Assembly (NCBI GenBank): GCA_028869315.1
Contig: JAGWSV010000170.1
Span: forward strand, 1-40,122
Length of the DNA stretch: 40,122 nt
Source: Rhodospirillales bacterium
Lineage (GTDB): Bacteria > Pseudomonadota > Alphaproteobacteria > Acetobacterales > Acetobacteraceae
Direction: 5' to 3'
Below the pieces are notes generated by a model. The model was not told where the DNA came from, did no database searches, and saw only the letters and a program-made list of their open reading frames with translations. Positions 9,497 through 40,122 of the stretch are shown here, piece after piece (within the stretch, counting starts at the first letter, position 1; every line of letters begins with the position of its first letter). Made by a program: the position numbers and the translations under genes.

Positions 9497-9966
9497 ACAA
9501 ACCAGGAAATTCGCCGAATTGGGACGATGGAGACTCTGCGATCGTGGCGGGCTGGTTTCGCCGTGTCCGCCCTCCCCAACTTCGCCGGAAACCCGCCGCC
9601 AACCTTTCCGTTTCGCCAGGCCGGCGCGCGGCGCTACTGTCTCGGCGTCCCGGGCTTTGCCGGGCGCTGGCTTCCCCAGGCCAGAGCGAGCAGTGGAGCG
9701 GCCGCCTCGCCCCTCGGGCGGCCGACTCCCTGTGGGCACCGGGCTGCGCCGAGCATGTCCAAGCGCAAGCCAAAACTCGGCGCGCGAATCTCCCCAGGTT
9801 CGCCATGGCGGTCCCGGTGCCGCCCATTGTCTGCCGTAGCCGCTTCGTTGCCGGCAGTGACACACGTCGCTCACGCAGACGTGTTCCCCTTTCGCGCGCG
9901 GCGGACCGCTCAAGATGCTGTCATAGGTGAAACTCTCGCTCAGCTGGGCCATCCTGCCCGCCTCGG

Positions 9967-10083
9967 CCCGGCCCATGCCGGCCCTTCGGCATGGCAGAGA
10001 AAATTCCCGGCCCATGTCGGCCTTTCGGCATGGGAGAGAAAATTCCCGGCCCATGTCGGCCTTTCGGCATGGGAGAGAAAATT
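9967..10083. repeat. Three tandem 39-bp hairpin-forming units
   Basis: Units at 9967-10005, 10006-10044 and 10045-10083 follow each other with an exact 39-bp period. Units 2 and 3 are identical; unit 1 differs at three positions. Each unit contains CCCATG...CATGGG arms around a CGG-rich inner stem, so each can fold into a stem-loop, followed by the constant tail AGAGAAAATT. 39 bp equals 13 codons, but I see no convincing gene across it. The array sits about 65 bp before the hybrid kinase start. It could act in RNA as leader structure, or be a spreading repeat. Confidence 0.85.
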
Positions 10084-10084
10084 C

Positions 10085-10095
10085 ATTGTAACAAT
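10085..10095. promoter_or_regulatory. 11-bp palindrome, candidate operator
   Basis: ATTGTAACAAT is a perfect inverted repeat around a central A, directly after the third 39-bp unit and 53 bp before the kinase start codon, in a small AT-rich pocket. Position and symmetry fit a regulator site or promoter element, but no regulator can be named. Confidence 0.3.
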
Positions 10096-10147
10096 CGCAG
10101 GTGTAGGCCTTGCCGCGACCGACTCCCGACTTGAAGCGAGAGACTGC

Positions 10148-13231: not shown

Positions 13232-13277
13232 GCTTGGGAACTGTAGCCGGCGGGCCGCGTCGGCCCGGGAACGGGGG

Positions 13278-13306
13278 CCGGCGGGGCCGGAGCCCCGCCG
13301 GATTTT
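13278..13306 (+). terminator. Rho-independent terminator
   Basis: A perfect 10-bp GC stem (13278-13287 with 13292-13301), a 4-nt loop CGGA, then ATTTT. It lies 47 bp after the hybrid kinase stop and ends transcription of that gene; the stop of the convergent serA lies 23 bp further on. Confidence 0.8.
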
Positions 13307-13328
13307 CAGGTAGCCAGTGTTGGCGCGC

Positions 13329-14915
13329 TCAGAACTCGAGCGCCGTTGCCTGCACGACCAGCTCCAGCTTCCGCACCCGGCCCAGCACGTCCTCGGGCAC
13401 CGGGCCGTCGACCGACACGAGGCAGATCGCGTCGCCGCCCGGCTCGGCGCGGCCAAGATGGAAGGTGGCGATGTTGATGCCCTCGTTGGCCAGGGTGGCG
13501 CCGAAGCGGCCGATGAAGCCCGGCTTGTCCTGGTTGGTGACATAGAGCATGTGCGGCGCGAACTCCGCCTCGATCGGGATGCCCTTGATCTCCACCAGCC
13601 GCGGCCGGGTGCCGGCGATCAGGGTGCCGGAGACGGAACGGGTGAGCTTGTCGGCTGCCACCGTGATCCGCACCAGGGTCTGGTACTCGCTCGGCCGATC
13701 ATGTGCGGTCTCGGCGACCTCGATCCCGCGCTCGCGCGCCACCACCGGGGCGTTCACCATGTTCACGCCTTCCATCATCGGCGCCAGCAGCCCGGCGAGC
13801 GCCGCCGCGGTCAGCGGCCGGTGGTTCAGCCCCGCGGCCTGGCCCTCGTATTCGACGACGATCCGCCGCACCACGCCTTCGCGCGAATGGGTGAGCTGGC
13901 CGGCGAAGGAGCCGAGCAGGCGGCAGAGATCCATGTAGGGCTTGAGCCGCGGCGCATCCTCGGCCGAGACCGAAGGCATGTTGATCGCGTTGGTCACCGC
14001 GCCGCTAAGCAGGAAGTCGCTCATCTGCTCGGCCACCTGGAGCGCCACGTTCTCCTGCGCTTCCGCCGTGGCGGCGCCGAGATGCGGGGTGCAGACCACG
14101 TTCTCCAGCGTGAAGAGCGGGCTGTCCTTCGCCGGTTCCGTCTCGAACACGTCGAGAGCGGCGCCGGCGACGTGACCGGTGGCAAGGGCTTCGGCCAGCG
14201 CGGCCTCGTCCACCAGGCCGCCGCGGGCGCAGTTGATGATCCGCACGCCCTTGCGCGTCTTCGCCAGCGCCTCCCGCGACAGGATGTTGCGGGTCGCGTC
14301 GGTCAGCGGCGTGTGCAGGGTGATGATGTCGGCGCGCGCGAGCAGCGCGTCGAGCTCCACCTTCTCCACCCCCAGTTCCAGCGCGCGCTTCTCGCCCAGG
14401 AACGGGTCGTAGGCGATCACCTTCATCTTCAGCCCGATGGCGCGGTCGGCGACGATCGAGCCGATATTGCCGCAGCCGATCAGGCCGAGGATCTTGCCGG
14501 TCAGCTCCACGCCCATGAACCGGTTCTTTTCCCACTTGCCGGCCTTGGTGGAGGCGGAGGCTTCCGGGATCTGCCGGGCGAGCGCGAACATCATGGCGAT
14601 CGCGTGCTCGGCGGTGGTGATGGTGTTGCCGAACGGCGTGTTCATGACGACGACGCCGTGGGCGGTGGCGGATTTGATGTCGACGTTGTCGACGCCGATG
14701 CCGGCGCGGCCGACCACCTTCAGGCGGGTCGCGGCATCCAGGAGTTCGCGCGTGACCTTCGTGGCCGAGCGGATGGCGAGGCCGTCATAGTCGCCGATGA
14801 TCGCGCGGAGATCGGGCGCCGAGAGGCCGGGCTTCAGATCGACCTCGACGCCGCGGGACCGGAAGATCTCCACCGCGGCGGGGGAGAGTTTGTCGCTGAT
14901 CAGGACTTTGGGCAT
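13329..14915 (-). CDS. serA: D-3-phosphoglycerate dehydrogenase
   Basis: First enzyme of serine synthesis: oxidises 3-phosphoglycerate to 3-phosphohydroxypyruvate with NAD. The 528-aa length marks the long form: substrate domain (GRAGIGVDNVD near residue 75), NAD-binding Rossmann domain (GLIGCGNIGS near 145-155), catalytic Arg region NCARGGLVDE, PHLGAATAEAQ with the catalytic His, then an intervening ASB domain and a C-terminal ACT domain (LYVTNQDKPGFIGRFG) that usually allows serine feedback control. It follows serC on the same strand with a 132-bp gap, so the two are probably co-transcribed. The gap contains GC-rich inverted repeats but no clear terminator. Confidence 0.97.
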   Translation of the reverse strand: MPKVLISDKLSPAAVEIFRSRGVEVDLKPGLSAPDLRAIIGDYDGLAIRSATKVTRELLDAATRLKVVGRAGIGVDNVDIKSATAHGVVVMNTPFGNTITTAEHAIAMMFALARQIPEASASTKAGKWEKNRFMGVELTGKILGLIGCGNIGSIVADRAIGLKMKVIAYDPFLGEKRALELGVEKVELDALLARADIITLHTPLTDATRNILSREALAKTRKGVRIINCARGGLVDEAALAEALATGHVAGAALDVFETEPAKDSPLFTLENVVCTPHLGAATAEAQENVALQVAEQMSDFLLSGAVTNAINMPSVSAEDAPRLKPYMDLCRLLGSFAGQLTHSREGVVRRIVVEYEGQAAGLNHRPLTAAALAGLLAPMMEGVNMVNAPVVARERGIEVAETAHDRPSEYQTLVRITVAADKLTRSVSGTLIAGTRPRLVEIKGIPIEAEFAPHMLYVTNQDKPGFIGRFGATLANEGINIATFHLGRAEPGGDAICLVSVDGPVPEDVLGRVRKLELVVQATALEF

Positions 14916-19680: not shown

Positions 19681-22600
19681 CTATTCCGCCGCGCCCGGGA
19701 TCAGGATCGGCGGGCGTTTCTTCCCGGCCAGCCGTTCCAGCGCCAGATAGACCGCCGGCGTGGTATAAAGGGTGAGCGCCTGCGACACGATCAGCCCGCC
19801 GGCGATGGCGATACCGAGCGGACGGCGCAGTTCCGACCCGGTGCCGAAGGCGAGCGCGAGCGGCATCGCGCCCAACAGGGCGGCAAGGGTCGTCATCAGG
19901 ATCGGGCGGAAGCGGGCGAGGCTGGCGGCGTGGATCGCCTCGCGCGGCGTCATGCCGCGGTTCCGTTCCGCTTCCAGCGCGAAATCGACGATCAGGATGC
20001 CGTTCTTCTTCACGATGCCCATCAGCAGAACGATCGCGATCATGCTCATGATGTCGAGCGGCAGCCCGGTCATCCACAAGGCGAGGAGCGCACCGAGACC
20101 GGCCGACGGCAGGGTTGAAAGGATCGTGATCGGATGCAGCAGGCTTTCGTAGAGCACACCGAGCACGATATAGATCGCAGCGAGCGCGGCCAGCAGCAGC
20201 AGGGGTTCGGTCGAGACGCTCTCCTTCAGCCATTTCGCCGTGCCGGCGAAGTCGGTGCGCACCGAATCCGGGATGCGCAGCGCGGCGGCGGCGTCCTGCA
20301 CCGCCTTTTCCGCGGTGCCGAGCGCGGTGTTGCCCTGCAGGTTGAAACTCAAGGTGGTGGCTGGGAACTGGCCCTGGTGGCGCACCTGCAGCGGCGCCCT
20401 GGCGCGCACCACCTTGGTCACGGCGGCCAGCGGCACCTGCGCGCCGCTGCTCGACCCCACGAAGATCCGGTTCAGCACCGCAGGGCTGGTCTGCCAGGCC
20501 GGTCCGTCCTCCACCACCACCTTGTACTGGTTGCGCCCGGCATAGATGGTGGAGACCTGGCGTTGCGCGAACGCATTGTTCAGCGTGCCGTCGATCGCCG
20601 CGGCGGAAACGCCGAGCCGCGACGCGGCGGCGCGGTCGATCTCCACCGTCGCCTGCGGCCCCGCCTTGTCGAGATCGGAGGTGACGTCGGTGATGCCCGG
20701 CGTCTGCTTCAGCCGCTGTTCGAGCTTCTGCGCCCAGAATTCCATTTCGTTCAGATGCTGGGAGACCACCGAGAACTGGTATTCGGCGCCGCCGGTGCGC
20801 CCGCCGCCGTGCAGGTCCTGCGCGGGAACCAGGAAGGACTGGATGCCCGCGAGCGCGCCCAGTTTTGGCCGCAGCCTCGCCACCACGCCGCTGGCGCTGA
20901 TCCCGCGCTCGGCGAGCGGTTTCAGTTGCACCTGCACCCAGCCCCGGTTGAGCGTGCTCCAGCCGACGCTGTCGCCGATATAGGAGGCGACCGAGGCCAC
21001 CGCCGGATCGGCGAGCAGCACCTTCACCGCCGCGCGCTGGCGCGCCTCCATGCCGTTGAACGAGATGTCGGGCGCGGCGACGGTCGAGCCTTGCAGCAGG
21101 CCGGTGTCCTGGGTCGGCATGAAGCCCTTGGGCACGGTGCCGTATAGCCGCACGGTGACGACGATCGTCGCCAGCATCGCCAGCAGCATGACCCCGCCGT
21201 GCCGCAACGACCAGCCGAGGCTGCGCGCGTAGCCGCGCTGCAGGCCGGCGAACAGCCGTTCGATCGCGCGATCGGCGGCGGCGAGCGCGCGGATGCGGGG
21301 CGGCCCGTGCGGCCGCATCCAGCGCCCGCAGATCATCGGCGTCAGGCTGAGCGACACCGCGGCGGAGATCGCGATCGCCATGGTCAGGGTCATGGCGAAT
21401 TCATGGAACAGACGGCCGAGGATGCCGCCCATGAACAGCAGCGGAATGAACACCGCGACCAGGGAAAGGCTGATCGAGACCACGGTGAAGCCGATCTGGC
21501 GCGAGCCGATCAGCGCCGCCCGCAACGGCGGCACGCCGTCCTCGATATGGCGGACGATGTTCTCGATCATGACGATCGCGTCGTCGACCACGAAGCCGAC
21601 CGAGACGGTCAGCGCCATCAGCGAGAAATTGTCGAGGGTGAAGCCGAGCGCCCACATCCCGGCCAGGGTGCCGCAGATCGACAGCGGCACGGTGACGCCG
21701 GCCGCCACGGTCGGCATCAGCCGGCGCATGAACAGCAGTACCACGAGCAGCACGAGCACGATGGTGATGGCGAGCGTGTACTGCACGTCGGCGACGCTGG
21801 CGCGGATCGTCTCCGTGCGGTCGGTGACGACATGCAGATCGATCCCGCCCGGCATCCAGGCTTTCAGCTGCGGCAGCAGCGCGCGGATGCGGTCGACCGT
21901 CTGGATCACGTTGGCGTCGGTGGTCTTGCGGATGGTCAGCAGCACCGCCGGCTGGCGGTCGTACCAGGCGGCCAGCCTGGTGTTGGTGACCGCGTCGGTG
22001 ACGTGCGCGACGTCCCCCAGCCGCAGCACCGCCCCGCCTTTCGTCTTCAGCACGAGGGCGCGGTACTGCACGGCGCGGGAGATCTGGCCGTTCACGCCGA
22101 TGAGGGCGGCGCGCTGCGGGCCTTCGAACCCGCCGGTCGGTTCCAGCACGTTGGCCGCCTTGATCGCATTCACCACGTCCTGCGCCGACAGTCCGGCGGC
22201 GGCCAGCCGGTCCGGTTCCAGATCGACCCGCACGGCCGGCGTCGCCGCCCCGTTCAGGGTGACGTCGGCGACCCCTTCCACCTGCGACAACCGTTGCGCC
22301 AGGATGGTGTCGGCGGCGTCGTAAAGCCGAGGGATCGACAGGGTCTTCGACGTCAGCGCCAGGTTCATGATCGGGATCGAGGCCGGATTGAACTTGCGGT
22401 AGTGCGGCCGCGTCGGCATGTCCGCCGGCAGGTCGGGCGTGGCGGCGTTGATCGCCGCCTGCACGTCGTTCGCCGCGACGTCGATGTTCTTGTCGATATC
22501 GAACTGGATGATGATCGAGGTGTTGCCGGTGGAACTGACCGACGTGATCTCGCTCACCCCCGGGATGTTGCCGAGCCGGCGTTCCAGCGGCGCGGCGACC

Positions 22601-22785
22601 GAGTTGGCCATCGTCTCCGGATCGGCGCCCGGGCGGGCGGCCATCACGACGATGGTGGGGATCGACACGTCGGGCAGCGAGGCGACCGGCAGTTCCTGGT
22701 AGGCGAGCACGCCGGCGAGCAGCAGGCCGAGCGCGAGCAGCACGGTGGCGACCGGGCGGGCGATGAAGGGGGCGGAGAAACCCAT
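19681..22785 (-). CDS. mdtC: RND efflux permease, MdtC-like (second pump of the operon)
   Basis: A 1034-aa inner-membrane proton-driven drug exporter with 12 predicted helices in the RND pattern: TM1 PFIARPVATVLLALGLLLAGVLAYQELP, two large periplasmic loops, and the TM4 motif GFVVDDAIVMIEN carrying the paired proton-relay Asp. TM10 IVLLMGIVKKNGILIVDFALE has the conserved Lys. It starts 11 bp after the preceding pump gene, so it is cotranslated. Paired RND pumps of this type form a heterotrimer in MdtBC (Enterobacteria) and MuxBC (Pseudomonas); the same is likely here. Substrates (bile salts, novobiocin-like compounds in relatives) are inferred only. Confidence 0.93.
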   Translation of the reverse strand: MGFSAPFIARPVATVLLALGLLLAGVLAYQELPVASLPDVSIPTIVVMAARPGADPETMANSVAAPLERRLGNIPGVSEITSVSSTGNTSIIIQFDIDKNIDVAANDVQAAINAATPDLPADMPTRPHYRKFNPASIPIMNLALTSKTLSIPRLYDAADTILAQRLSQVEGVADVTLNGAATPAVRVDLEPDRLAAAGLSAQDVVNAIKAANVLEPTGGFEGPQRAALIGVNGQISRAVQYRALVLKTKGGAVLRLGDVAHVTDAVTNTRLAAWYDRQPAVLLTIRKTTDANVIQTVDRIRALLPQLKAWMPGGIDLHVVTDRTETIRASVADVQYTLAITIVLVLLVVLLFMRRLMPTVAAGVTVPLSICGTLAGMWALGFTLDNFSLMALTVSVGFVVDDAIVMIENIVRHIEDGVPPLRAALIGSRQIGFTVVSISLSLVAVFIPLLFMGGILGRLFHEFAMTLTMAIAISAAVSLSLTPMICGRWMRPHGPPRIRALAAADRAIERLFAGLQRGYARSLGWSLRHGGVMLLAMLATIVVTVRLYGTVPKGFMPTQDTGLLQGSTVAAPDISFNGMEARQRAAVKVLLADPAVASVASYIGDSVGWSTLNRGWVQVQLKPLAERGISASGVVARLRPKLGALAGIQSFLVPAQDLHGGGRTGGAEYQFSVVSQHLNEMEFWAQKLEQRLKQTPGITDVTSDLDKAGPQATVEIDRAAASRLGVSAAAIDGTLNNAFAQRQVSTIYAGRNQYKVVVEDGPAWQTSPAVLNRIFVGSSSGAQVPLAAVTKVVRARAPLQVRHQGQFPATTLSFNLQGNTALGTAEKAVQDAAAALRIPDSVRTDFAGTAKWLKESVSTEPLLLLAALAAIYIVLGVLYESLLHPITILSTLPSAGLGALLALWMTGLPLDIMSMIAIVLLMGIVKKNGILIVDFALEAERNRGMTPREAIHAASLARFRPILMTTLAALLGAMPLALAFGTGSELRRPLGIAIAGGLIVSQALTLYTTPAVYLALERLAGKKRPPILIPGAAE

Positions 22786-22796
22786 CCCGCGCGTGC

Positions 22797-25700
22797 CTAT
22801 TCCGCCGGCTCGGGCGCCGTGCGCGGGCCGGCCAGGCGCAGCCGCAGGCGCTCGAACGCGAGATAGATCGCCGGCGTGGTGTAGAGGGTCAGCACCTGCG
22901 ACAGCAGCAGCCCGCCGATGATGGTGACGCCGAGCGGTACCCGCAGCTCCGACCCGGCGCCGTGCATCACCACCAGCGGCACCGCGCCGAGCAGCGCCGC
23001 CATCGTGGTCATCATGATCGGGCGGAAGCGCAGCAGGCAGGCCTCGGCGATCGCCTGCTCGGCCGACAGGCCGCGGCTCCGCTCCGCCTCGATCGCGAAG
23101 TCGATCATCATGATCGCGTTCTTCTTCACGATGCCCATCAGCAGCACGACGCCGACCAGCGCCACCACGGTCAGGTCGTGCCCGGTGGCGAGCAGCGCGA
23201 GCAGCGCGCCGATGCCGGCCGAGGGCAGGGTGGAGAGGATGGTGACCGGATGGATCCAGCTTTCGTACAGCACGCCCAACACGATGTAGATGACCACCAC
23301 CGCGGCGCCGATCAGCCAGGGTTCGGCGGCGAGCGAGCTCTGGAACTCGGCCGCGGCGCCGGAATAGGAGCCGGAAATGCCCGGCGGCAGGCCGATCGCC
23401 TGCTCGGCGCCCTGCACCGCGGCGACCGCGGCGCCGAGCGAGACGCCGGGCGCGAGGTCGAAGCCGATGGTGGCGGCGGGGAACTGGTCCTGATGCGTCA
23501 CCACCAGCGGCACCGCGCGGCGGGTGATGGTGGCGATCGCCGACAGCGGCACCTGCGCCGTGCCGCTGCCCGGAACATGCAGCAGGCGCAGCACGTCAGG
23601 GTTCTGCTGCCAGGCCGGATTGGCCTCCAGGATCACGCGGTACTGGTTCGACTGTCCGAAGATGGTGGAGATCTGCCGCTGGCCGAACATGTCATACAGC
23701 GTGTCCTCGACCGCCTGCATGCTGACGCCGAGCCGGGTCGCGGCGGCGCGGTCGACCGTGATCGCCATTTCGCTGCCGTTGTCGACCTGGTCGGACGTCA
23801 CGTGCGCGAGCTGCGGCAGGCCGCCCAGCCGGGCGAGCAGCTTCGGCAGCCAGGCATCGAGCTCCGCGGCATCGGTATCCACCACGGTGTACTGGTAGGC
23901 GTTGCGGCTGGTCCGTGCGCCCAGGGTGATGTCCTGCACCGGCTTGAACCAGGCGGTAAGGCCGGGCACCCCGGCGGCATCGGCGCGCAGCGCCGGGATC
24001 ACGGCCTGCACCGGCGGCCGCTGTCCCACCGGCTTCAGCGCGATGGTCAGTTGCCCGGTATTGGGCGTGGCGTTGATCGTGCCGGCGCCGACGAAGGAGA
24101 CCACGCCGGTCACCGCCGGGTTGCGGGCGATCTTCGCCGCCACCGCGTTCTGCATTGCGGCGAGGCGGGGGATCGACACGCCGGGTCCCGCCTCCATGGT
24201 GGCGGCGATCACGCCGGTGTCCTGCTCCGGCAGGAAGCCTTTCGGAACCACGGCATAAAGCGCGATCGTGCCGGCCAGGGTGGCGGCGGCGATCAGCAGC
24301 ATCATCGTCTCGTGCTGCAGGGTCCAGCCGAGCGAGCGGCGGTAGGCGCCGCGCAGCGCCTCGAAGCCGCGTTCGAGGGCGCGGCCGAGCGCGCCTTCCT
24401 CCGCCGCCGATCCCTGGCGCAGCAGCCGCCCGCACAGCATCGGCGTCAGCGTGAGCGAGATGACCGCAGAAACCACCACGGCGACCGAGAGGGTGACGGC
24501 GAATTCGGAAAACAGCCGCCCGACCACCCCGGTCATGAACAGCAGCGGAATGAACACGGCGATCAGCGACACGGTGAGCGAGACGATGGTGAAGCCGATC
24601 TGCCCGGCGCCGCGATAGGCGGCGGTGAGCGGGTGCATGCCTTGTTCGAGGTAGCGCACCACGTTCTCGATCATCACGATCGCGTCGTCGACCACGAAGC
24701 CGGTGGCGATCGTCAGCGCCATCAGCGACAGGTTGTCGAGGCTGTAGCCCAGCTGGTCCATGATCCCGAACGTGCCGATCAGCGACAGCGGCAGCGCGAC
24801 GGCGGGGATGAAGGTGGCGCGCCAGGAGCGGAGGAAGGCGAAGATCACCAGCACCACCAGCACCACGGCGGCGACCAGCGAGAACTGCACGTCGCGCACG
24901 GACGCGCGGATCGTTTCGGTGCGGTCGGTGACGATGCGCAGCCGGATGCCGCCCGGCATCGCCCGTTGCAGCGACGGCAGCGCCGCCTTGATGCGGTTCA
25001 CCGTCTGCACGATGTTCGCGCCCGGCTGACGCTGGATGTCCAGCACCGCCGCCGGCTTCCGCTGGCCGTGGTCGAAATACCAGGCGCCGATGCGGTCGTT
25101 CTCCAGCCCATCCACCACGGTGCCGACCGCCGACAGCCGCACCGGCGCGCCGTTGCGCCAGGCGAGCACGAGGTTGCGGTAGGCGTCGGCGTTCACGAGC
25201 TGGTCGTTGGCGCCGAGCGCCACGGCGAGGCGCGGCCCGTCGAACCCGCCCTTGGCGCCGTTGGCATTGGCGGCGGCGACGGCGGTGCGCACGTCCTCCA
25301 TCGACAGCCCGTAGCCGGCGAGCCGTGCGGGATCGATCCGCACCCGCACCGCCGGGCGCAGCCCACCTTCCACCGTGACCTTGCCGACGCCGGCGATCTG
25401 CGCCAGCTTCGGTTGCAGGATCGTATCCGCCGCGTCGCCCACCTGCTGGATCGGCACCTGATCGGAGGTCAGCGCCACGGTCAGGATCGGCGCGTCGGCC
25501 GGGTTCACCTTGGAATAGACCGGCGGGTAGGGAAGGTTGGCGGGCAGCGTGCCGGCCGCGGCGTTGATCGCCGCCTGCACGTCCTGCGCGGCGGAATCGA
25601 TGTTCCGGCTCAGCACGAATTGCAGGGTGATCTCGCTGGTGCCCTCCGACGAGGCCGAGGTCATGGTGGCGAGCCCCGGGATCTGCCCGAGCTGCCGCTC

Positions 25701-25901
25701 CAGCGACGCCGTGATCAGGGTCGAAACGGTCTGCGGGCTGGCGCCGGGCAGCTGGGTGGTGACCTCGATGGTCGGGAAGTCCACCTCCGGCAGCGCCGAA
25801 ACCGGCAACGCCTGGTAGCCGAGCAGCCCGGCGAGCAGCACCGCCACCGCCAGCAGCGCGGTGGCAACCGGCCGGGCGATGAACGGCGCCGAGATGTTCA
25901 T
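22797..25901 (-). CDS. mdtB: RND efflux permease, MdtB-like (first pump of the operon)
   Basis: A 1034-aa RND permease, clearly paralogous to its downstream neighbour. TM1 PFIARPVATALLAVAVLLAGLLGYQALP, TM4 GFVVDDAIVMIENVVRYLE with both Asp, and TM10 VVLLMGIVKKNAIMMIDFAIE are intact, as are the porter and docking domains by length. Its ATG overlaps the stop of the membrane fusion protein gene by 4 bp (ATGA), a classic translational coupling. It would assemble with MdtC-like, the fusion protein and the outer-membrane factor into an envelope-spanning pump. No repressor gene flanks the operon, so regulation is unknown. Confidence 0.93.
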   Translation of the reverse strand: MNISAPFIARPVATALLAVAVLLAGLLGYQALPVSALPEVDFPTIEVTTQLPGASPQTVSTLITASLERQLGQIPGLATMTSASSEGTSEITLQFVLSRNIDSAAQDVQAAINAAAGTLPANLPYPPVYSKVNPADAPILTVALTSDQVPIQQVGDAADTILQPKLAQIAGVGKVTVEGGLRPAVRVRIDPARLAGYGLSMEDVRTAVAAANANGAKGGFDGPRLAVALGANDQLVNADAYRNLVLAWRNGAPVRLSAVGTVVDGLENDRIGAWYFDHGQRKPAAVLDIQRQPGANIVQTVNRIKAALPSLQRAMPGGIRLRIVTDRTETIRASVRDVQFSLVAAVVLVVLVIFAFLRSWRATFIPAVALPLSLIGTFGIMDQLGYSLDNLSLMALTIATGFVVDDAIVMIENVVRYLEQGMHPLTAAYRGAGQIGFTIVSLTVSLIAVFIPLLFMTGVVGRLFSEFAVTLSVAVVVSAVISLTLTPMLCGRLLRQGSAAEEGALGRALERGFEALRGAYRRSLGWTLQHETMMLLIAAATLAGTIALYAVVPKGFLPEQDTGVIAATMEAGPGVSIPRLAAMQNAVAAKIARNPAVTGVVSFVGAGTINATPNTGQLTIALKPVGQRPPVQAVIPALRADAAGVPGLTAWFKPVQDITLGARTSRNAYQYTVVDTDAAELDAWLPKLLARLGGLPQLAHVTSDQVDNGSEMAITVDRAAATRLGVSMQAVEDTLYDMFGQRQISTIFGQSNQYRVILEANPAWQQNPDVLRLLHVPGSGTAQVPLSAIATITRRAVPLVVTHQDQFPAATIGFDLAPGVSLGAAVAAVQGAEQAIGLPPGISGSYSGAAAEFQSSLAAEPWLIGAAVVVIYIVLGVLYESWIHPVTILSTLPSAGIGALLALLATGHDLTVVALVGVVLLMGIVKKNAIMMIDFAIEAERSRGLSAEQAIAEACLLRFRPIMMTTMAALLGAVPLVVMHGAGSELRVPLGVTIIGGLLLSQVLTLYTTPAIYLAFERLRLRLAGPRTAPEPAE

Positions 25902-27304
25902 CGCGCCGCCTGCTTGCCGCCCGTCCCGGCCGGCTTCCGCGCCGGATTTTGTCGCGGCTTCCCGGGCGGCGCGATCTTTGCCGCCGCGCCAGCCTGGGGC
26001 GCCACCGCGACCCGCGCGCCGTCCGACAGGCGGGACGCGCCGTCGGTCACCACCCGTTCCCCGGCGGCGAGCCCGGTGCCGATCACCGCTGCGTCGGCAT
26101 CCTCATGCGTGACCGTGACCGTCCGCCGCGCCGCTTTGCCGTCGGCGCCGACGACATACACATAGAGCCCGTCCGGCCCCTGCTGCACCGCCGCCGGCGG
26201 CACCACCACCGCGTTGCGGTCGGTTGCGACCTGCAGCCGCACCGCAACGAACCCGCCCGGCCACAGCCGGTCCTGCGGATTGGGGAAGGTCGCCTTCAGC
26301 TTGATGGTGCCGGTGGTGGAGTCCACCGTGTTGTCCAGCACGGACAGGGTGCCGCGGTCGAGCACGTTGGCCGCGGTTTCCGCCGCGCCCTGCGCATAGG
26401 CCAGCACCGGTGCCTTGCCCATCGGCGTCGTGCCCATCGGCGTCGTGCCCATCGGCGTCGTGCTCATCGGCGTCGGGCCGGAGTGCAGCGCCGCCTGCAC
26501 CTGCCCCAGATCCTGCTGCGGCAGCGAGAACACGACCGAGATCGGGTGGATCTGCGCGATCGTCACGATCGCCCCGGTGCTGCCGGGCTGCACGACGTTG
26601 CCCGGGTCGATCAGCCGCAGCCCGCTGCGCCCGGAGATCGGCGCGGTGATGGTGCAGTAGCTAAGCTGGGTGCGCGCGGTGTCGATCTGCGCCTGGTCCA
26701 TCTGCACCTGCGCCGCCAGTTGCGCGACCAGCGCCTTCTGGGTCTCCGCCTGCTGGGCGGAGGTGTAGTTCTTCGCCACCAGCTTCTGGTAGCGAGCCAG
26801 ATCGGCGCGGGCGTTGGCGAGGTTCGCCTCGTCCTGCGCCTTCTTCGCTTCCGCCTGTTCCAGCGCGGCCTGGTAGAGCCGCGGGTCGATGCGGGCGAGC
26901 ACCTGGCCCTTGGTCACGTCCTGGCCCTGGCGGAAGTTCACCGACAGCAGCGGCCCGCCGACCACCGGCGTGACGGTGACCGAGTTGAATGCCTGCACGG
27001 TGCCGAGCCCGTCGAGATAGATCGGCACGTTCGCCACCCGCGCGGGGGCGACCAGAACCGGGATCGCCGCTGCCGGCGGCCCGGCGTGGCGGCCGGACGG
27101 ACCGGTCGGCCACCGCCAGATCGCCGCCGCGATCCCGGCCATCAGCAGCGCCGACAGCACGAGCGAAACCGCGCGGCCACGCCGGGTCGGCGGGCGCGGT
27201 GCGCCGCCGTTCGGTTCGGCTTCGTAGCCGGGACGCGGCTCGTCGCGGATTGCGGGGCCGGGGGGGCGTTCGCGGGGGGTGATGTCCCCGGGGGCGATGT
27301 CCAT
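25898..27304 (-). CDS. mdtA: RND periplasmic membrane fusion protein, MdtA-like
   Basis: The adaptor linking inner-membrane RND pumps to the outer-membrane factor. The 468-aa protein has an N-terminal membrane anchor (VSLVLSALLMAGIAAAIW, about residues 47-65) after a basic Pro-rich cytosolic stretch. A lipoyl half (VRVANVPIYLDGLGTVQAFNSVTVTPVVGG), a coiled-coil hairpin (about 165-225), the second lipoyl half (ISGRSGLRLIDPGNVVQPGS), a beta-barrel and a membrane-proximal domain follow. At about residues 277-297 it carries a Met/Pro/Thr-rich insertion built from a 15-bp repeat, in the loop where homologues have a short linker. The gap to the upstream outer-membrane factor gene is 101 bp; the stop overlaps the next gene by 4 bp. 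Confidence 0.93.
   Translation of the reverse strand: MDIAPGDITPRERPPGPAIRDEPRPGYEAEPNGGAPRPPTRRGRAVSLVLSALLMAGIAAAIWRWPTGPSGRHAGPPAAAIPVLVAPARVANVPIYLDGLGTVQAFNSVTVTPVVGGPLLSVNFRQGQDVTKGQVLARIDPRLYQAALEQAEAKKAQDEANLANARADLARYQKLVAKNYTSAQQAETQKALVAQLAAQVQMDQAQIDTARTQLSYCTITAPISGRSGLRLIDPGNVVQPGSTGAIVTIAQIHPISVVFSLPQQDLGQVQAALHSGPTPMSTTPMGTTPMGTTPMGKAPVLAYAQGAAETAANVLDRGTLSVLDNTVDSTTGTIKLKATFPNPQDRLWPGGFVAVRLQVATDRNAVVVPPAAVQQGPDGLYVYVVGADGKAARRTVTVTHEDADAAVIGTGLAAGERVVTDGASRLSDGARVAVAPQAGAAAKIAPPGKPRQNPARKPAGTGGKQAAR
26416..26475. repeat. 4 x 15-bp in-frame tandem repeat
   Basis: The 15-bp unit TGCCCATCGGCGTCG repeats at 26416, 26431, 26446 and 26461; the last copy has two changes. Being a multiple of three, copy-number change keeps the frame of the fusion-protein gene. 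In protein it reads as a T-x-P-M-G pentad repeated four times. It looks like a recent slippage expansion in a surface loop of the beta-barrel domain. Confidence 0.9.
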
Positions 27305-33347: not shown

Positions 33348-34103
33348 ATGAAAGCCGGCGATATCATGACCCGCGGCGTCATCGCGGTGCGCGGCGAAGC
33401 GCCGCTCGCGCAGGCGGTGCGGCTGATGATCGACAACCGTATCAGCGGCCTGCCGGTGCTGGACGCCGCCGGCCGCGCGGTCGGCGTGCTGACGGAGGGC
33501 GACCTGCTCCGCCGGGCCGAAACCGGCACCGAAGGCAAGCGCCCCGGCTGGCTGGAGATCATCTTCGTCCCTGGCCGGCTGGCGGACGATTACATCCGCA
33601 CCCATGGCCGCCGGGTATCCGAGGTGATGACCCCGGACGTGCTCACGGTGGACGAGGCGGCCCCGCTCGACGAGGTCGCGCACACGATGCGCAACAAGCG
33701 GGTGAAGCGCCTGCCGGTGACCCGCGACGGCGTCGTGGTCGGCATCATCAGCCGGGCCGATCTCGTGAAGGTGCTGGCCGAGAAGCTGGAAGTGGCCGCC
33801 GAAACCGGCGACGATGCCACCGTGCGCGACCTGATCCTGGCCGAGCTGCGGCGGGAAAGCTGGGTGCCGCTGCGTTCCATCACCGTCTCGGTGACCGACG
33901 GGGTGGTGGCACTCGACGGCGTGGTGTTCGACGAGCGCCAGCGCCAGGCGATCGGGGTCGCGGCGGAAAACGTCGCCGGGGTGAAGGCGCTCGACAACCG
34001 CCTGATCGTGGTGGAGCCGAATACCGGCATCGTGATGGTGGACCCGCTGGCCGAGGCCGAGCAGGCCGCCGCCGCAAAGGGCGGCGCGAACCCGGCGGCC
34101 TGA
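33348..34103 (+). CDS. CBS-domain pair plus BON domain protein
   Basis: A 251-aa soluble protein with two CBS repeats (MTRGVIAVRGEAPLAQAVRLM...VGVLTEGDLL, residues about 7-60; VMTPDVLTVDEAAPLDEVAHTM...VGIISRADLVKVL, about 92-145). A BON domain follows (RDLILAELRRESWVPLRSITVSV...VAGVKALDNRLIVVEP, about 158-222). CBS pairs bind adenosine nucleotides; BON domains are thought to contact membranes or other proteins. Together they suggest an energy-state sensor, possibly envelope-associated. An AGGAGGAA site precedes the ATG. It lies 45 bp ahead of acetate kinase, likely one operon, with an FNR/FixK-like box upstream. Confidence 0.88.
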   Translation: MKAGDIMTRGVIAVRGEAPLAQAVRLMIDNRISGLPVLDAAGRAVGVLTEGDLLRRAETGTEGKRPGWLEIIFVPGRLADDYIRTHGRRVSEVMTPDVLTVDEAAPLDEVAHTMRNKRVKRLPVTRDGVVVGIISRADLVKVLAEKLEVAAETGDDATVRDLILAELRRESWVPLRSITVSVTDGVVALDGVVFDERQRQAIGVAAENVAGVKALDNRLIVVEPNTGIVMVDPLAEAEQAAAAKGGANPAA

Positions 34104-34148
34104 GCCGGCGGGCGGCACGACGGGCCGAGCCGGAGGAGGAAGGCAAGC

Positions 34149-35330
34149 ATGGCGCATGACGCGGTCCTGGCGCTGAACGCCGGGTCCTCCTCGGTGAAGT
34201 TTGCCCTGTTCGCGGTGGCGGCGGGCGAGGGTCTCACCCGCGTTGCGCATGGGCAGATCGAAGGGATCGGCAGCGCCCCGCATTTGCTGGCCCGCGATCC
34301 CGCGGGCGGTGTGCTGGAGGAGCGCCGCTTCGCCGCGGCGGCGACGCATGAGGACCTGCTCGGCATCCTGATCGACTTCGTGACCGGGCATCTGGGCGGG
34401 CGGGCGCTCGCCGCCATTGGCCACCGGGTGGTGCATGGCGGCACGCGGTTTCACCGTCCCGAGCGTGTGACGGCGGAGGTGCTGGAGGCGCTGGATGCGC
34501 TGGCCCCGCTCGCCCCGCTCCATCAGCCGCATAACCTGGCGCCGATCCGCGCGATCGCCGCCACCCGGCCCGCGGTGCCGCAGGTGGCCTGCTTCGACAC
34601 CGGCTTCCATCACACCATGCCGGCGCTCGCCACCAGCTTCGCCCTGCCGCACGCGATGACCGAAGCCGGCATCCGCCGCTACGGGTTCCACGGGCTGTCC
34701 TACGAGTTCATCGCCAGGCGGCTCCGCGTACTGGCGCCCCGGCTTGCGGCGGGGCGGGTGATCGTCGCGCATCTCGGCAACGGCGCCAGTCTCTGCGCCA
34801 TGGCGGGCGGGCGCAGCGTCGACACCACCATGGGGTTCACCGCGCTCGACGGGCTGATGATGGGAACCCGTTCGGGCAGCCTCGATCCCGGGGTGGTGCT
34901 GCATCTCATTGCGCAGCGCGGTATGACGGCGGCGGCGGTGGAGGATCTGCTCTACCACCGCTGCGGCCTGCTCGGCGTGTCCGGCATCTCCAACGACATG
35001 CGCACCCTGCTCGACAGCGACGATCCGCTTGCCGCGGCGGCGGTGGACTTGTTCGTGTTCCGGATCGGCCGCGAGGCCGGCGCGCTCGCCTCCTCCTTGG
35101 GCGGTCTCGACGGATTCGTGTTCACCGCCGGCATCGGCGAGCACGCGGCCCCGGTGCGCGCGGCCGTGTGCGCGCGGCTCGGCTGGCTTGGCGTGCGGCT
35201 CGACCCGGCGGCGAATGCGCGCGGGGAGGGGTTGATCAGCGCCGCGGACAGCCCCGTTGCGGTCTGGGTGGTGCCGACCGACGAGGAAGCGATGATCGCG
35301 CGCCACACGCTGGAAACATTGCAGGGCTGA
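34149..35330 (+). CDS. ackA: Acetate kinase
   Basis: Converts acetyl phosphate and ADP to acetate and ATP (reversible). The 393-aa protein has NAGSSSVKF at the N terminus, GHRVVHGGTRF near residue 95, ACFDTGFHHTMP, GFHGLSYEF, HLGNGASLCAM and MGTRSGSLDPG. Near the C terminus GIGEHAAPVRA carries the last catalytic region; all family blocks are present. A GGAGGA-type ribosome binding site lies before ATG 34149. The usual partner phosphotransacetylase is not next door, so acetyl phosphate may come from a phosphoketolase or Pta elsewhere. Co-location with CBS-BON and the FNR/FixK-like box suggests use under low oxygen. Confidence 0.97.
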   Translation: MAHDAVLALNAGSSSVKFALFAVAAGEGLTRVAHGQIEGIGSAPHLLARDPAGGVLEERRFAAAATHEDLLGILIDFVTGHLGGRALAAIGHRVVHGGTRFHRPERVTAEVLEALDALAPLAPLHQPHNLAPIRAIAATRPAVPQVACFDTGFHHTMPALATSFALPHAMTEAGIRRYGFHGLSYEFIARRLRVLAPRLAAGRVIVAHLGNGASLCAMAGGRSVDTTMGFTALDGLMMGTRSGSLDPGVVLHLIAQRGMTAAAVEDLLYHRCGLLGVSGISNDMRTLLDSDDPLAAAAVDLFVFRIGREAGALASSLGGLDGFVFTAGIGEHAAPVRAAVCARLGWLGVRLDPAANARGEGLISAADSPVAVWVVPTDEEAMIARHTLETLQG

Positions 35331-35663
35331 GCGGGCCGAAGCCGGGCGCGCGGGGCGCGGCGATCACATCGCGGTGACGGCGCCATCGCGGTCCGGTGAG
35401 CCTGCCTTGGAATTCGCGCCGCGCTGATTAGGTCGGATGGACGACGGGCGGCGTGTTCGATTTTTCGGCGCGAAGGACAGGATTCTTGCCGCGAACGAAC
35501 GTGCCGAATTCATACCGGACAGCATAAACAACGAACGCGCGGATGGAACGTATATTCATAGATCCGTCGAAAACGAACTGACCTGCGGCGCTGTCCACGC
35601 GAATAGCCGGCGCCCGCGGGCCCATTTTGGCGGACGGTTGCATTGCAACAGAGAGTACATATA
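35331..35663. other. Intergenic region with AT-richer part and palindrome
   Basis: This 333-bp stretch is upstream of the stress-type gene. Positions about 35445-35580 are AT-richer than their surroundings, with open frames on both strands that look non-coding. A GGAAC-N15-CGTC pair (35545-35568) vaguely resembles a general-stress (EcfG-type) promoter, but spacing and -10 are off. The 13-bp palindrome near the right end is listed separately. Confidence 0.4.
35637..35649. promoter_or_regulatory. 13-bp palindrome before stress-type gene
   Basis: GTTGCATTGCAAC is a perfect inverted repeat around a central T, ending 14 bp before the start codon at 35664. It could be an operator or a small RNA hairpin near the ribosome binding region. 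No regulator can be named. Confidence 0.35.
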
Positions 35664-36317
35664 ATGATCGAAACGAACTATCCCGAGTCCGCGACGAGCT
35701 ATACCGCGCGCGAAGTCGTCGGGGTGCTGCCCAGTCCGGACGCGCTGCAGGCCGGCGTCGACGAACTCCTGATCGCTGGCTTCGATCGGTCCGCGATATC
35801 GGTGCTCGCATCCGACGCTGCGGCGCGGCGGCGCCTGAAGGATCTCTACGGCACGGTGGAGGCAGCCGCCGATGACGACGGCGCGCCGCATGCGGCGTTC
35901 GTCTCGGACGCATCGAAAGCCGAGGGCAAGGCGGCGGCGGTTGCGGTTCCGTTCTACCTCGGGAGCGTCGCCGGCGCCGCAGCGGTGGTGGCATCGGGCG
36001 GCGTCCTCGCCGCGGCGATCGGGGCCGCGGTGGCGAGCGGCGCGGCGGGCGCCGGGCTCGGGGCCTTGCTCGCGAATGCGCTGTCGAAGCGCCATGCCGA
36101 CTCCGTGGCGGACCAGCTTGCGCGCGGCGGCCTGGTGCTCTGGGTCGGCGTGCCGGACCAGGCGGCAGAAGACCGCGCCTGCGCGGTGCTGCAGCGTCTC
36201 GGCGCGACCCAGGTGCATGTGAACGCCGTCGCGCATCGCTGGGGCGCCGAGGACCGGCCGCTGGGCGATGTCCAGCCGGACCCGTTCCTGGTCCGCTCGC
36301 CGGCCAAGCAGCCCTGA
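35664..36317 (+). CDS. General-stress-type (YflT/GSP17M-like) protein with Gly-zipper
   Basis: A 217-aa product. The N-terminal ~50 residues (AREVVGVLPSPDALQAGVDELLIAGFDRSAISVLAS) match the general-stress 17M/YflT-type domain, an alpha-beta fold. The middle (FYLGSVAGAAAVVASGGVLAAAIGAAVASGAAGAGLGALLANALS, about 92-140) is a Gly/Ala zipper able to insert in or coat membranes. The C-terminal part (LARGGLVLWVGVPDQAAEDRACAVLQRLGATQVHVNAVAHRW) looks like a second copy of the N-terminal fold. The start is the ATG at 35664 (ATAATGATCG), with only a weak GAGAG ribosome binding site; an upstream alternative at 35643 lies in the palindrome. Exact function unknown. It converges on glcF with a 16-bp gap. 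Confidence 0.75.
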   Translation: MIETNYPESATSYTAREVVGVLPSPDALQAGVDELLIAGFDRSAISVLASDAAARRRLKDLYGTVEAAADDDGAPHAAFVSDASKAEGKAAAVAVPFYLGSVAGAAAVVASGGVLAAAIGAAVASGAAGAGLGALLANALSKRHADSVADQLARGGLVLWVGVPDQAAEDRACAVLQRLGATQVHVNAVAHRWGAEDRPLGDVQPDPFLVRSPAKQP

Positions 36318-36333: not shown

Positions 36334-37635
36334 TCAGTCCGTGGCGCGCGCGGGCTCCGGCCCGCCGGCCATCCAGTCCAGCAGTTCGATCGTGTGCACC
36401 ACCGGCAGCCCGCCGCCGGCCAACTGGGCGATGCAGCCGATATTGCCGGCCGCGATCAGGTCGGGGCTGGTGGCGCGCAGGGTGTCGAGCTTGCGTTCCC
36501 GCAGCCGGCCGGCAATCTCCGGCTGCATCAGGTTGTAGGTGCCGGCGGAGCCGCAACAAAGATGTGCGTCGGCCGGCTCGACCACGGTGAACCCGGCCTT
36601 GGCCAGCAGCGCTTTCGGTTCGATGGTGACCTGCTGGCCGTGCTGCAGGCTGCAGGCGGAATGATACGCCACGGTGAGGCCCGGCGGCTCCCGCGTCGGC
36701 GCGTAACCGATACGGGTCAGGAACTCGCTGATGTCCACCGCCAGCGCAGAGACCTGTTCCGCGCGGGCGCGCAACGGCTCCGGCGCGGTGCGGAACATGA
36801 ACCCGTAATCCTTCACCGTGGTGCCGCAGCCCGAGGCGTTGATGACGATCGCGTCCAGCCCGTCGCCGTCGATCTCGTGGCCCCAGGCCGCGATATTGGC
36901 CTCTGCGCTGGCGATTGCCGGATCGTGCTTGCCCATGTGATGCGTGAGCGCGCCGCAGCAACCGGCGCCCTCGGCCACCACCACCTCCACGCCCATGCGA
37001 GTGAGCAGCCGGATGGTGGCGTCGTTGATCCCCGGCGCCAGCACCTGCTGGGCACAGCCCGCGAGCAGCGCCACCCGGCCCTTGCGTGCCCCCTCCGCCG
37101 GATGGACGCCCGGCGGGGTGCCGCCTGACGGCAGCGTGTCCGGCGCCAGGGCCAGCATCGCCCGCAGCCGCTTTCCTAGCGGGTGCGACGCCGGCAGCAG
37201 CCAGGCGAACGCCCGCCCGGCCCCGGCCGCCGCCAGCGCGGCGCGGAACCGGCGCGGATACGGCAGCACGGAGGCCAGCACGGCGCGCAGCAGCCGGTCG
37301 TGCCAGGGCCGGCGATAGGTGTTTTCGATATAGGTCCGCGCGTGGTCGACGAGGTGCATGTAGTGCACGCCGGACGGGCAGGTAGTCATGCAGGACAGGC
37401 AGGAGAGGCAGCGGTCGATGTGCAGGACCACGTCCTCGCTGGCCGGTCGGCCGGATTCCAGCATGTCCTTGATCAGGTAGATGCGCCCCCGCGGGCTGTC
37501 CAGCTCGTCGCCCAGCAGCCGGAAGGTCGGGCAGGTCGCGGTGCAGAAGCCGCAATGCACGCAGGTCCGCAACACCTGGTTGGACGCGGCGATATCGGGG
37601 TCGCGCAGCTGCTCGGCGGTGAAATGGGTCTGCAT
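36334..37635 (-). CDS. glcF: Glycolate oxidase iron-sulfur subunit
   Basis: A 433-aa electron-transfer subunit of the membrane-associated glycolate dehydrogenase GlcDEF, which oxidises glycolate to glyoxylate. Two 4Fe-4S motifs lie near the N terminus (CVHCGFCTATCP, about residues 25-36; CLSCLSCMTTCP, about 76-87). Two CCG domains follow (GCCGALTHHMGKHD near 223; CCGSAGTYNLMQPEIAG near 360), as in heterodisulfide-reductase-like proteins. It is last of the operon, starting 3 bp after the small membrane-protein gene. Confidence 0.95.
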   Translation of the reverse strand: MQTHFTAEQLRDPDIAASNQVLRTCVHCGFCTATCPTFRLLGDELDSPRGRIYLIKDMLESGRPASEDVVLHIDRCLSCLSCMTTCPSGVHYMHLVDHARTYIENTYRRPWHDRLLRAVLASVLPYPRRFRAALAAAGAGRAFAWLLPASHPLGKRLRAMLALAPDTLPSGGTPPGVHPAEGARKGRVALLAGCAQQVLAPGINDATIRLLTRMGVEVVVAEGAGCCGALTHHMGKHDPAIASAEANIAAWGHEIDGDGLDAIVINASGCGTTVKDYGFMFRTAPEPLRARAEQVSALAVDISEFLTRIGYAPTREPPGLTVAYHSACSLQHGQQVTIEPKALLAKAGFTVVEPADAHLCCGSAGTYNLMQPEIAGRLRERKLDTLRATSPDLIAAGNIGCIAQLAGGGLPVVHTIELLDWMAGGPEPARATD

Positions 37636-37638
37636 GGC

Positions 37639-37908
37639 TCAGCCCTGCGTCATCTGGCGGCGCAACAGCAGCAGCGCGACGATCAGCCAGACCATCGCCA
37701 GCGGGAAGCAGACCCGCGACACCATCGGGTAGCTGCCGGCGAAGATGATCTGCGTGAACATCAGCAGGATCGCCCCGGTCATCATCAGGAAGCGAATATC
37801 GAGCAGGTGGTTCGCCGGGTTGCTGCGCCAGTGCAGGAAGGCGAGCACGGCGAACGCGACCAGCAGCGGCGGAACCACGAGATAGGTGGGAAAGACGACG
37901 GTGCTCAC
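37639..37908 (-). CDS. Small three-helix membrane protein inside glc operon
   Basis: An 89-aa product with three hydrophobic segments: YLVVPPLLVAFAVLAFLHW (about 9-27), FLMMTGAILLMFTQIIFAG (about 41-59) and VCFPLAMVWLIVALLLLRR (about 67-85). It has few charged residues and no recognised domain. It lies between glcE (10 bp gap) and glcF (3 bp gap) on the same strand, so translation must be coupled; codon use is like its neighbours. It could anchor the soluble GlcDEF complex to the membrane or hand electrons toward quinone, but it shows no heme or quinone motif. I do not recall this gene in the standard E. coli operon. Confidence 0.8.
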   Translation of the reverse strand: MSTVVFPTYLVVPPLLVAFAVLAFLHWRSNPANHLLDIRFLMMTGAILLMFTQIIFAGSYPMVSRVCFPLAMVWLIVALLLLRRQMTQG

Positions 37909-37918
37909 GTGCGGCCCC

Positions 37919-39115
37919 TCACAGCCCGGCGTACAGGCGGCCGGGGTTGAGGATACCGCGCGGGTCGAACGCCGCCTTCACCTGCCTCGTGATGCGCGCC
38001 AGCGCCGCCGGCTCCGGCGGCACCACCGCCACCGCGGCGCGCAGCGGCTCCGGGCCGCGCAGCAGGGTCCAGGTTCCGCCCCGTGCCGTGGCGGCGTCGC
38101 AAACCGCCTGGTGCACCGCCTCGCTCGCCGGGCCGGCCAGCCAGGCGAGCCCGCCGCCCCAGTCGAGGAACCCGCTCACGCCGGCTGTCCGCGCGGCCTC
38201 CAGCACCGCCGGGCCGGCGGAGGGGCGCACGGAAACCCGCCACACCGTGTCCTCCGGTGCCGCCGGCAGCGGCGTCGCGTCGCGCACCGCGCGCCACAGC
38301 GTGCGGGAGGCGGCTTCGTCGAGCGTGTCGGCAGCGCCGAACCCGGCCAGGTCGGCGCGCAGCCGCGCGATGCGATAGGTCACCGAGGACGCGAAATCCT
38401 CGATCCGGGCGATTGCGACGGCGCCCGGGAAGCCCGCTCGCGCGGCCGCGGCCGGCGGCAGGTACGCCGCGCCGGAGACGCCGTAGGGCGAGCCGAGCGC
38501 GGCGGAAAGCGCCGCCACGCCGGCTTTCGCGTCCAGCCCGGACACCACCACCGTGCCCACGGACTCGGGCGCCGGCAGGACCTTCAGGGTGATCTCGGTC
38601 ATGACGGCAAGAGTGCCGTGGCTGCCGGTCAGCAGCTTGCACAGGTCGAGCCCGGTGACGTTCTTCAGCACACGCCCGCCGGAGCGGATGATCTCGCCGC
38701 TGCCGTTCACCGCCCGCACGCCCAGCACGTGGTCCCGCATCGCGCCCCAGACGACCCGGCGCGGCCCGGACAGGTTGGCAGCCACGATCCCGCCCAGGGT
38801 GGACGGCTGGGTGGCGCCGAACAGCGCCGAAACGTCGGGCGGCTCGGCGATCAGGTGCTGGCCCTGCGCGGCGAGCGCCGACTCGATCTCCGGCAGGGGC
38901 GTGCCGGCGCGGGCGCGCAGCACGAGTTCCTTCGGCGAATAGAGGGTGATGCCGCGCAGCCCGGCGGTGGACAGCGCGCGCGCCGCCTGCACGGGGCGCA
39001 GCATCGCCGCCTTGGTGGCGTTGCCCTGGATCGCCAGCGGCTCACCGGCCGCGGCGGCGGCGGCCACCGCCGCGGCGAGCGCGGTCTCCTCGGTCGGAGC
39101 GGTAAGGGACGTCAT
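37919..39115 (-). CDS. glcE: Glycolate oxidase FAD-binding subunit
   Basis: A 398-aa FAD-binding type 4 (PCMH/VAO fold) subunit, smaller partner of GlcD. The family fold is seen in GEPLAIQGNATKAAMLRP at the N terminus, STAGLRGITLYSPKELVLRARAGT, and QPSTLGGIVAANLSGPRRVVWGAMRDHVLGVRAVNG (FAD contact region). The C terminus ends FDPRGILNPGRLYAGL, as usual. The ATG at 39113-39115 overlaps the glcD TGA (4-bp ATGA overlap). Together with GlcD and GlcF it oxidises glycolate, feeding electrons to the respiratory chain. Confidence 0.94.
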   Translation of the reverse strand: MTSLTAPTEETALAAAVAAAAAAGEPLAIQGNATKAAMLRPVQAARALSTAGLRGITLYSPKELVLRARAGTPLPEIESALAAQGQHLIAEPPDVSALFGATQPSTLGGIVAANLSGPRRVVWGAMRDHVLGVRAVNGSGEIIRSGGRVLKNVTGLDLCKLLTGSHGTLAVMTEITLKVLPAPESVGTVVVSGLDAKAGVAALSAALGSPYGVSGAAYLPPAAAARAGFPGAVAIARIEDFASSVTYRIARLRADLAGFGAADTLDEAASRTLWRAVRDATPLPAAPEDTVWRVSVRPSAGPAVLEAARTAGVSGFLDWGGGLAWLAGPASEAVHQAVCDAATARGGTWTLLRGPEPLRAAVAVVPPEPAALARITRQVKAAFDPRGILNPGRLYAGL

Positions 39116-40122
39116 GTCGCGAGGGGGAAGACTTTGTGCGGATTGAGCAACCAGCCGGGGTCGAACGCGGCCTTGATCCGCCGCTGCTGGTCAAGCTCCG
39201 TCGCGGTGAACTGCGAGGGCATGAGGTCGCGCTTCTCCACTCCCACGCCATGCTCGCCGGTGAGGCAGCCGTCCACCTCGACGCAGAGCTTCAGGATGTC
39301 GGCGCCGAACGCCTCCGCCTTGTGGAAGCTGGCCGGATCGTTGGCGTCGAACATGATGAGCGGGTGGAGGTTGCCGTCGCCGGCGTGGAAGATATTGGCG
39401 ACCTGCAGGCCGTACGCCTCCGACATTTCGCCGATGCGGCGCAGCACGTCGGGCAGGCGGGAGGTGGGGATGGTGCCGTCCATGCAGAGATAGTCGGGGC
39501 TGATCCGCCCGACGGCGCCGAACGCGCCCTTGCGGCCCTTCCAGATCGCCGCCGACTCGGCGGCCGATTGCGACACTTTCAGGCTGATCGGATCGTGGCG
39601 TTCGCAGATGGCGCGGATGCGTCCCAGCAGGTCGTCCTGCTCCGCGGTGCTGCCTTCCACTTCGATGATCAGCATCGCCTCCGCGTCGAGCGGGTAGCCG
39701 GCATGGGCGAAGGCCTCGCAGGCGTGGATCGCCGGGCGGTCCATGAATTCCAGCGCCACGGGGATGATGCCGGAGCCGATGATGGCATCGACGCAGGCGC
39801 CGGCGATCTCGTTCGACTTGAACGCCGCCAGCATGGCGCGCGCGCCTTCCGGCCCGCGCAGGATGCGCACCGTCACCTCGGTGACGATGCCGAGCTGGCC
39901 CTCGCTGCCGGTCAAGAGGCCGAGCCAGTCGTAGCCCGCGGCATCGAGATGCGCGCCGCCGATGTCGAGGATCTCGCCCTCGATCGTGACCAGCTTCAGG
40001 CCGAGCAGGTTGTTGGCGGTGACGCCGTATTTCAGGCAGTGCGCGCCGCCCGAGTTCATGTTGACGTTGCCGCCGATCATGCAGGCGAGCTGGGAGGAGG
40101 GATCGGGCGCGTAGAAGAACCC
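39112..40122 (-). CDS. glcD: Glycolate oxidase catalytic subunit GlcD (3' part, cut by window edge)
   Basis: About the last 336 codons of the FAD-dependent catalytic subunit. The edge falls in the FAD-binding region, right at FYAPDPSSQLACMIGGNVNMNSGGAHCLKYG; the sequence continues upstream beyond the window, so the ATG at 40080 is internal. The C-terminal FAD-linked oxidase domain follows, with HAGDGNLHPLIMFD (metal or substrate His), LTGEHGVGVEKRDL and the end FDPGWLLNPHKVFPLAT. glcD is first of the glc genes in the window; its promoter is not included. Confidence 0.95.
   Translation of the reverse strand, partial: GFFYAPDPSSQLACMIGGNVNMNSGGAHCLKYGVTANNLLGLKLVTIEGEILDIGGAHLDAAGYDWLGLLTGSEGQLGIVTEVTVRILRGPEGARAMLAAFKSNEIAGACVDAIIGSGIIPVALEFMDRPAIHACEAFAHAGYPLDAEAMLIIEVEGSTAEQDDLLGRIRAICERHDPISLKVSQSAAESAAIWKGRKGAFGAVGRISPDYLCMDGTIPTSRLPDVLRRIGEMSEAYGLQVANIFHAGDGNLHPLIMFDANDPASFHKAEAFGADILKLCVEVDGCLTGEHGVGVEKRDLMPSQFTATELDQQRRIKAAFDPGWLLNPHKVFPLAT

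Follow-up and report, generated by a model that had tools for sequence, protein, structure and literature searches.

The window analysed here, the whole 40,122-nucleotide stretch of contig JAGWSV010000170.1 from an Acetobacteraceae member of the Rhodospirillales, carries between glcE and glcF a gene for an 89-aa membrane protein. We propose, with moderate confidence, that this protein is a lineage-specific and optional membrane partner of the peripheral glycolate oxidase GlcDEF, probably acting as a tether or stabiliser. It is absent from most glc operons and is thus not a standard, obligatory subunit of GlcDEF. The initial annotation had presented it as a candidate for the missing membrane anchor or electron conduit of the enzyme; it is better described as an optional accessory membrane partner.

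The glc genes of the window, and the gene between glcE and glcF (the slot gene hereafter), were placed as follows.

39112-40122, reverse strand: glcD, truncated by the contig end, with the C-terminal part present (ORF list, NCBIfam; 351 bits against an NCBIfam cut-off of 568 over the part present)
37919-39115, reverse strand: glcE, FAD-binding subunit, 398 aa (NF008439, 287 bits against a cut-off of 284)
37915-37920, reverse strand: ribosome-binding-like GAGGGG, 6 nt 5' of the slot-gene GTG, overlapping the glcE stop codon
37639-37908, reverse strand: slot gene, 89-aa three-transmembrane protein of group A (ORF list, hydropathy, AlphaFold2 model)
36334-37635, reverse strand: glcF, 433-aa iron-sulfur subunit carrying two CCG domains (NF008434, 446 bits against a cut-off of 333)

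With GlcF and GlcE over their cut-offs and the partial GlcD adjoining glcE, this is a GlcDEF glycolate oxidase operon. The listed ATG reading frame of glcD begins at 40080 and the frame is open past there. The named relatives of GlcF, from which the host family was judged to be Acetobacteraceae, are mainly from Roseomonas, Falsiroseomonas, Humitalea and Acetobacteraceae MAGs. The slot gene has a GTG start; the glcE stop ends at 37919, leaving a gap of 10 bp, and the ATG of glcF at 37635 leaves one of 3 bp, so that the 89-aa three-helix frame is present exactly as the initial annotation had described it. The families and order of GlcD, GlcE and GlcF are those of the E. coli glcDEFGBA operon, whereas the membrane protein is an insertion relative to E. 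coli K-12, in which glcE and glcF are separated by 10 bp with no gene between them.

Elsewhere, the window contains a 1795-aa open frame (8156-13543, reverse strand) with no Pfam match at E 1e-5, and a tandem RND efflux operon (19681-27304, reverse strand), whose HlyD-like membrane fusion protein precedes a pair of adjoining AcrB-type pump subunits of 1034 aa each. Genes for a CBS-BON protein and then acetate kinase (33348-35330, forward strand), and after these one for a YflT-like protein (35643-36317), are convergent with the glc operon.

Hydropathy, on which the transmembrane (TM) calls throughout this work are based, peaks at residues 4, 40 and 63 of the slot protein, giving three TM segments, and a single-sequence AlphaFold2 model (mean pLDDT 76) has helices at residues 5-29, 31-59 and 61-88. 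The N-terminus is predicted to lie outside, and the TM1-TM2 loop and the C-terminus in the cytoplasm. This N-out topology was considered as a distinguishing mark and rejected, since all 35 of 35 slot proteins are N-out by charge, but so are 9 of 12 other small multi-TM ORFs. An alignment of 12 homologues of the window type (group A) has P7 as its sole invariant residue, with F40, S64 and L75 nearly invariant and no conserved polar residue within the helices. The group does preserve its length, the number of helices (three) and the basic character of both the tail and the loop that follows helix 1, which are the properties required of a tether or stabiliser at the membrane. No His or Cys is conserved across the 12 homologues, the counts of these residues varying from 0 to 3 within the group, and the protein is therefore not recognisable as a heme or Fe-S conduit. 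The initial annotation had also offered an electron conduit as an option; this found no support, and a conduit of the HdrE, DsrM or SdhC type was rejected, as the helices have no conserved His pairs or Cys ligands. Searches returned no curated family for the slot protein (best Pfam E 0.1, best NCBIfam E 0.24), an unconvincing best PHROG match (E 0.007 over 30 residues, to a family of unknown function) and no homologue in the plasmid collection searched. Comparison with solved structures, by sequence and by fold, gave nothing significant, with no detectable relation of either kind.

Among 60 relatives searched, two congeners encode homologues of 70% and 69% identity, a third encodes one of 68% that is truncated by a contig end, and slot-protein homologues in three other genera show 28-39% identity; the homologues found in these relatives all adjoin glcE and/or glcF in the same slot. 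A profile built from 12 slot homologues was then searched across 200 genomes of the family (Acetobacteraceae). The 12 strongest matches were all in the slot, adjoining glcE and/or glcF; below them came the slot proteins of G183 and of G086, the latter from group F, together with off-slot copies. Family genomes without glcEF gave no comparable profile match. A single genus accounts for the off-slot paralogues, with one in each of three genomes (G127, G183 and G225). They are distant relatives of 85-110 aa with three TM segments (L222:2980-3237 and L223:2989-3246, forward strand; L224:2995-3327, reverse strand), and in two of the three genomes the relative lies near a CoA-transferase family III gene. 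Since homologues sit in the glcE-glcF slot, save for these paralogues in a single genus, the slot gene is a real gene, encoding a fast-evolving small membrane protein.

The dN/dS of the slot gene between the window and its congeners was 0.66 and 0.76, compared with 0.13-0.34 for GlcE and GlcF. Taken singly, these window pairs have confidence intervals that include 1, while pooling of three congeneric pairs gave 0.52 (95% CI 0.38-0.72), and the value in the group C slot gene was 0.34; on the pooled pairs, the slot gene is under purifying selection overall. One slot ORF of the window type, that of G122 (L294), is still open at 90 aa with a second helix that is no longer hydrophobic, and may represent a decaying gene or a frameshift that was later compensated. 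It could be envisaged that the slot proteins are young or near-neutral orphans, small hydrophobic ORFs that arise or insert at the junction and are tolerated there, hardly affecting GlcDEF. The high ratios of the window pairs, with intervals including 1, would suit such an origin, as would the degraded look of the G122 helix, the narrow taxonomic range of the occupants and their lack of sequence relation to one another. However, the pooled and group C ratios, the preservation of frame and helices across deep branches of the GlcE+GlcF tree and the specificity of the slot argue against it, and we consider it quite unlikely.

How often the slot is filled was surveyed in the 200 family genomes, mostly draft MAGs, of which 111 had GlcE and GlcF matches on the same contig and strand. 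Among 94 family operons with a glcE-glcF gap of 0-700 bp, 51 gaps were of 30 bp or less and ten, of 31-200 bp, were empty, giving an empty gap in 61 of the 94; the other 33 gaps were of 201-700 bp, and a small TM ORF was present in 28 of these. In several further family genomes (G123, G076, G155, G189, G065 and others) the gap is ~1-12 kb, and those read contain other open frames, so that this junction seems to have been opened more often than glcD-glcE. A one-genome-per-family draw across the Alphaproteobacteria (about one genome each) placed 57 of 63 glcE-glcF pairs no more than 60 bp apart, and no small multi-TM protein was encoded in the six longer gaps read from these 63 pairs; closest to one was a 186-aa ORF of G228, which has a hydrophobic stretch at its N-terminus. 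The two genes nearly touch in a Paracoccus plasmid operon. Small multi-TM ORFs occupy the slot in ten of 42 named loci of Rhodobacteraceae-like type, in a sample that may overlap in genomes with the genome-based ones. Isolates of Tateyamaria, Gemmobacter and Frigidibacter are among the carriers of a slot gene.

These counts bear directly on the strong form of the initial annotation, in which the protein would be the obligatory missing anchor or electron conduit of GlcDEF. Its position in the operon, and the established expectation that the enzyme passes electrons to quinone, speak for such a subunit. Yet the slot is empty in most family operons (61 of 94), no small multi-TM slot gene was found in the 63 class-wide operons, the E. 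coli gap is of 10 bp, and no His or Cys is conserved even inside group A; this makes an obligatory role very improbable and, as a general statement, largely refutes it. Of the missing-anchor candidate there stands a real membrane protein that tracks the glcE-glcF slot, but not a general GlcDEF subunit, as most family operons are without the gene. Absence from nearly all related glc operons, one part of the annotation's own grounds for refutation, largely holds for the sequence family. The slot itself is repeatedly filled by small polytopic proteins.

The glcD-glcE junction served as a control. It measures 133 bp or less in 24 of 24 family loci and 200 bp or more in only 1 of 55 named loci, whereas a TM ORF lies between glcE and glcF in 11 of these 55. 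Two or more TM peaks were present in 1 of 529 ORFs of 80-180 aa elsewhere in operon DNA, as against 27 of 28 slot ORFs. The contention that the placement of the slot gene is beyond accident is thus borne out, both by homologues that share the slot and by the rarity of multi-TM ORFs elsewhere in operon DNA. The same specificity counts against an alternative in which the gene encodes an independent small membrane protein, acting for instance in glycolate or glyoxylate uptake or release or in membrane stress, and shares the operon solely for co-expression. A transport-related gene would not be odd there, since the E. coli glc operon has the permease GlcA, and same-family homologues do lie away from glc, two of them near CoA-transferase family III genes. 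A transport helper could, however, be placed anywhere in the operon, whereas it is the glcE-glcF junction that is filled and not glcD-glcE; moreover, 89 residues with no conserved polar residue in the helices are poor material for a carrier, and this explanation is in our view unlikely. The off-operon paralogues in three genomes nevertheless indicate a family that is not confined to GlcDEF, which counts against the reading of the slot protein as a GlcDEF partner.

By sequence, the 28 family occupants fall into groups A (12), F (3), B (3), C (6), D (2) and E (2). Group A is the window type and includes the partly degraded G122 protein; G122 and G183 were placed in it by position and resemblance, G122 without a BLAST link. 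Profile-profile comparison linked G183 to group A at 96% and group F more weakly, at 84%. A single common family for all slot proteins was tried and rejected, all pairs outside A, F and G183 having a profile-profile probability below 4% in a test that the small alignments make weak. The family occupants thus comprise at least five groups between which no sequence relation is detectable. Group E proteins have four helices, and those of group F a TM part and a soluble tail. The group F ORFs (L098, L101 and L102, from G086, G209 and G161) are of about 171 aa, with three helices and then a conserved tail (RALLPESILELSPxEMRALLPARFQ...) that would make a natural extra contact domain. The Rhodobacteraceae occupants form about four further groups, sorted by eye, with no profile relation to the others, and representatives of the slot-occupant groups reached no Pfam family; 'unrelated' denotes here no detectable similarity, as judged from small alignments.

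A tree of GlcE+GlcF from 92 family members was obtained by a quick method (LG+G4); it is unrooted, with some weak internal branches and a warning on one pairing of long branches. Groups B, C, D, E and F each lie on one side of a branch, while group A occupies two regions, one of them shared with F, with slot-empty lineages between. The slot gene is retained in every sampled member of two clades, and its presence or absence on this unrooted tree involves at least six changes. The pattern fits several independent recruitments, or fewer origins combined with many losses and extreme divergence. We tentatively suggest, while thinking it somewhat more probably wrong than right, that the junction is a docking-subunit slot, for which unrelated proteins of three to four helices were recruited independently in several alphaproteobacterial lineages and then inherited with the operon, as membrane partners of GlcDEF. 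The alternative is one ancestral protein that diverged past recognition and was lost many times.

As an optional partner of GlcDEF, the 89-aa protein would be translated together with glcE and glcF and would insert its three helices in the membrane, where the short basic cytoplasmic loop and tail could form a docking face for the peripheral enzyme, most likely for GlcF. GlcDEF docked in this manner would be held near the quinone pool, or stabilised, by a protein that is itself presumed cofactor-free, with electrons passing directly from GlcF to quinone. In bacteria without the slot gene, which are the majority, GlcF presumably reaches the membrane unaided, perhaps via amphipathic segments such as GlcF residues 113-131; that most lineages have no slot gene indicates that GlcDEF can do so without this protein. 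The repeated presence of small polytopic occupants in the slot is consistent with a link to GlcDEF, either physical or functional. In succinate dehydrogenase the C-terminal part of SdhB contacts the membrane anchor, and since the N-terminal ferredoxin domain of GlcF resembles that part of SdhB, GlcF would be the natural docking partner. A protein that diverges fast while keeping its hydropathy, and in which no His or Cys is conserved, is more in keeping with a tether than with a redox subunit. GlcE and GlcF show no difference, whether in length or in peak hydropathy, between slot-filled and slot-empty operons. A compensating anchor in GlcE or GlcF of the slot-empty operons was rejected on this ground, and there is thus no visible trade-off that would mark dependence on an anchor.

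The arrangement resembles that of HdrDE, DsrMK and SdhB-SdhCD, in which a small polytopic protein is likewise encoded beside an iron-sulfur subunit, and GlcF has CCG and ferredoxin domains in common with HdrB/HdrD and SdhB. In contrast, the anchors HdrE, DsrM and SdhCD bear heme or conserved quinone-site residues, while the slot protein is without conserved His or Cys. Accessory subunits of the CydX type may offer another parallel, as they too are small, hydrophobic, encoded in the operon of a respiratory enzyme, little conserved in sequence and without cofactor. CydX, however, has a single helix as against three or four in the slot proteins, whose place is filled by unrelated families.

As judged by titles and abstracts, the papers found on GlcDEF and on CCG-domain proteins describe no such protein, and those on GlcDEF describe neither a repeated filling of the glcE-glcF junction by small membrane proteins nor the way in which GlcDEF meets the membrane. 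GlcDEF is the standard bacterial glycolate-oxidising enzyme, acting in photorespiratory salvage, on algal exudates and in glycol degradation. An optional partner that is present in some lineages and missing in close relatives offers a natural comparison for the tethering of GlcDEF. The repeated filling of the junction is a more interesting finding than the single slot gene, and, if true, such occupation of one junction by membrane proteins that are unrelated to each other would offer a clean example of an accessory subunit recruited by convergence.
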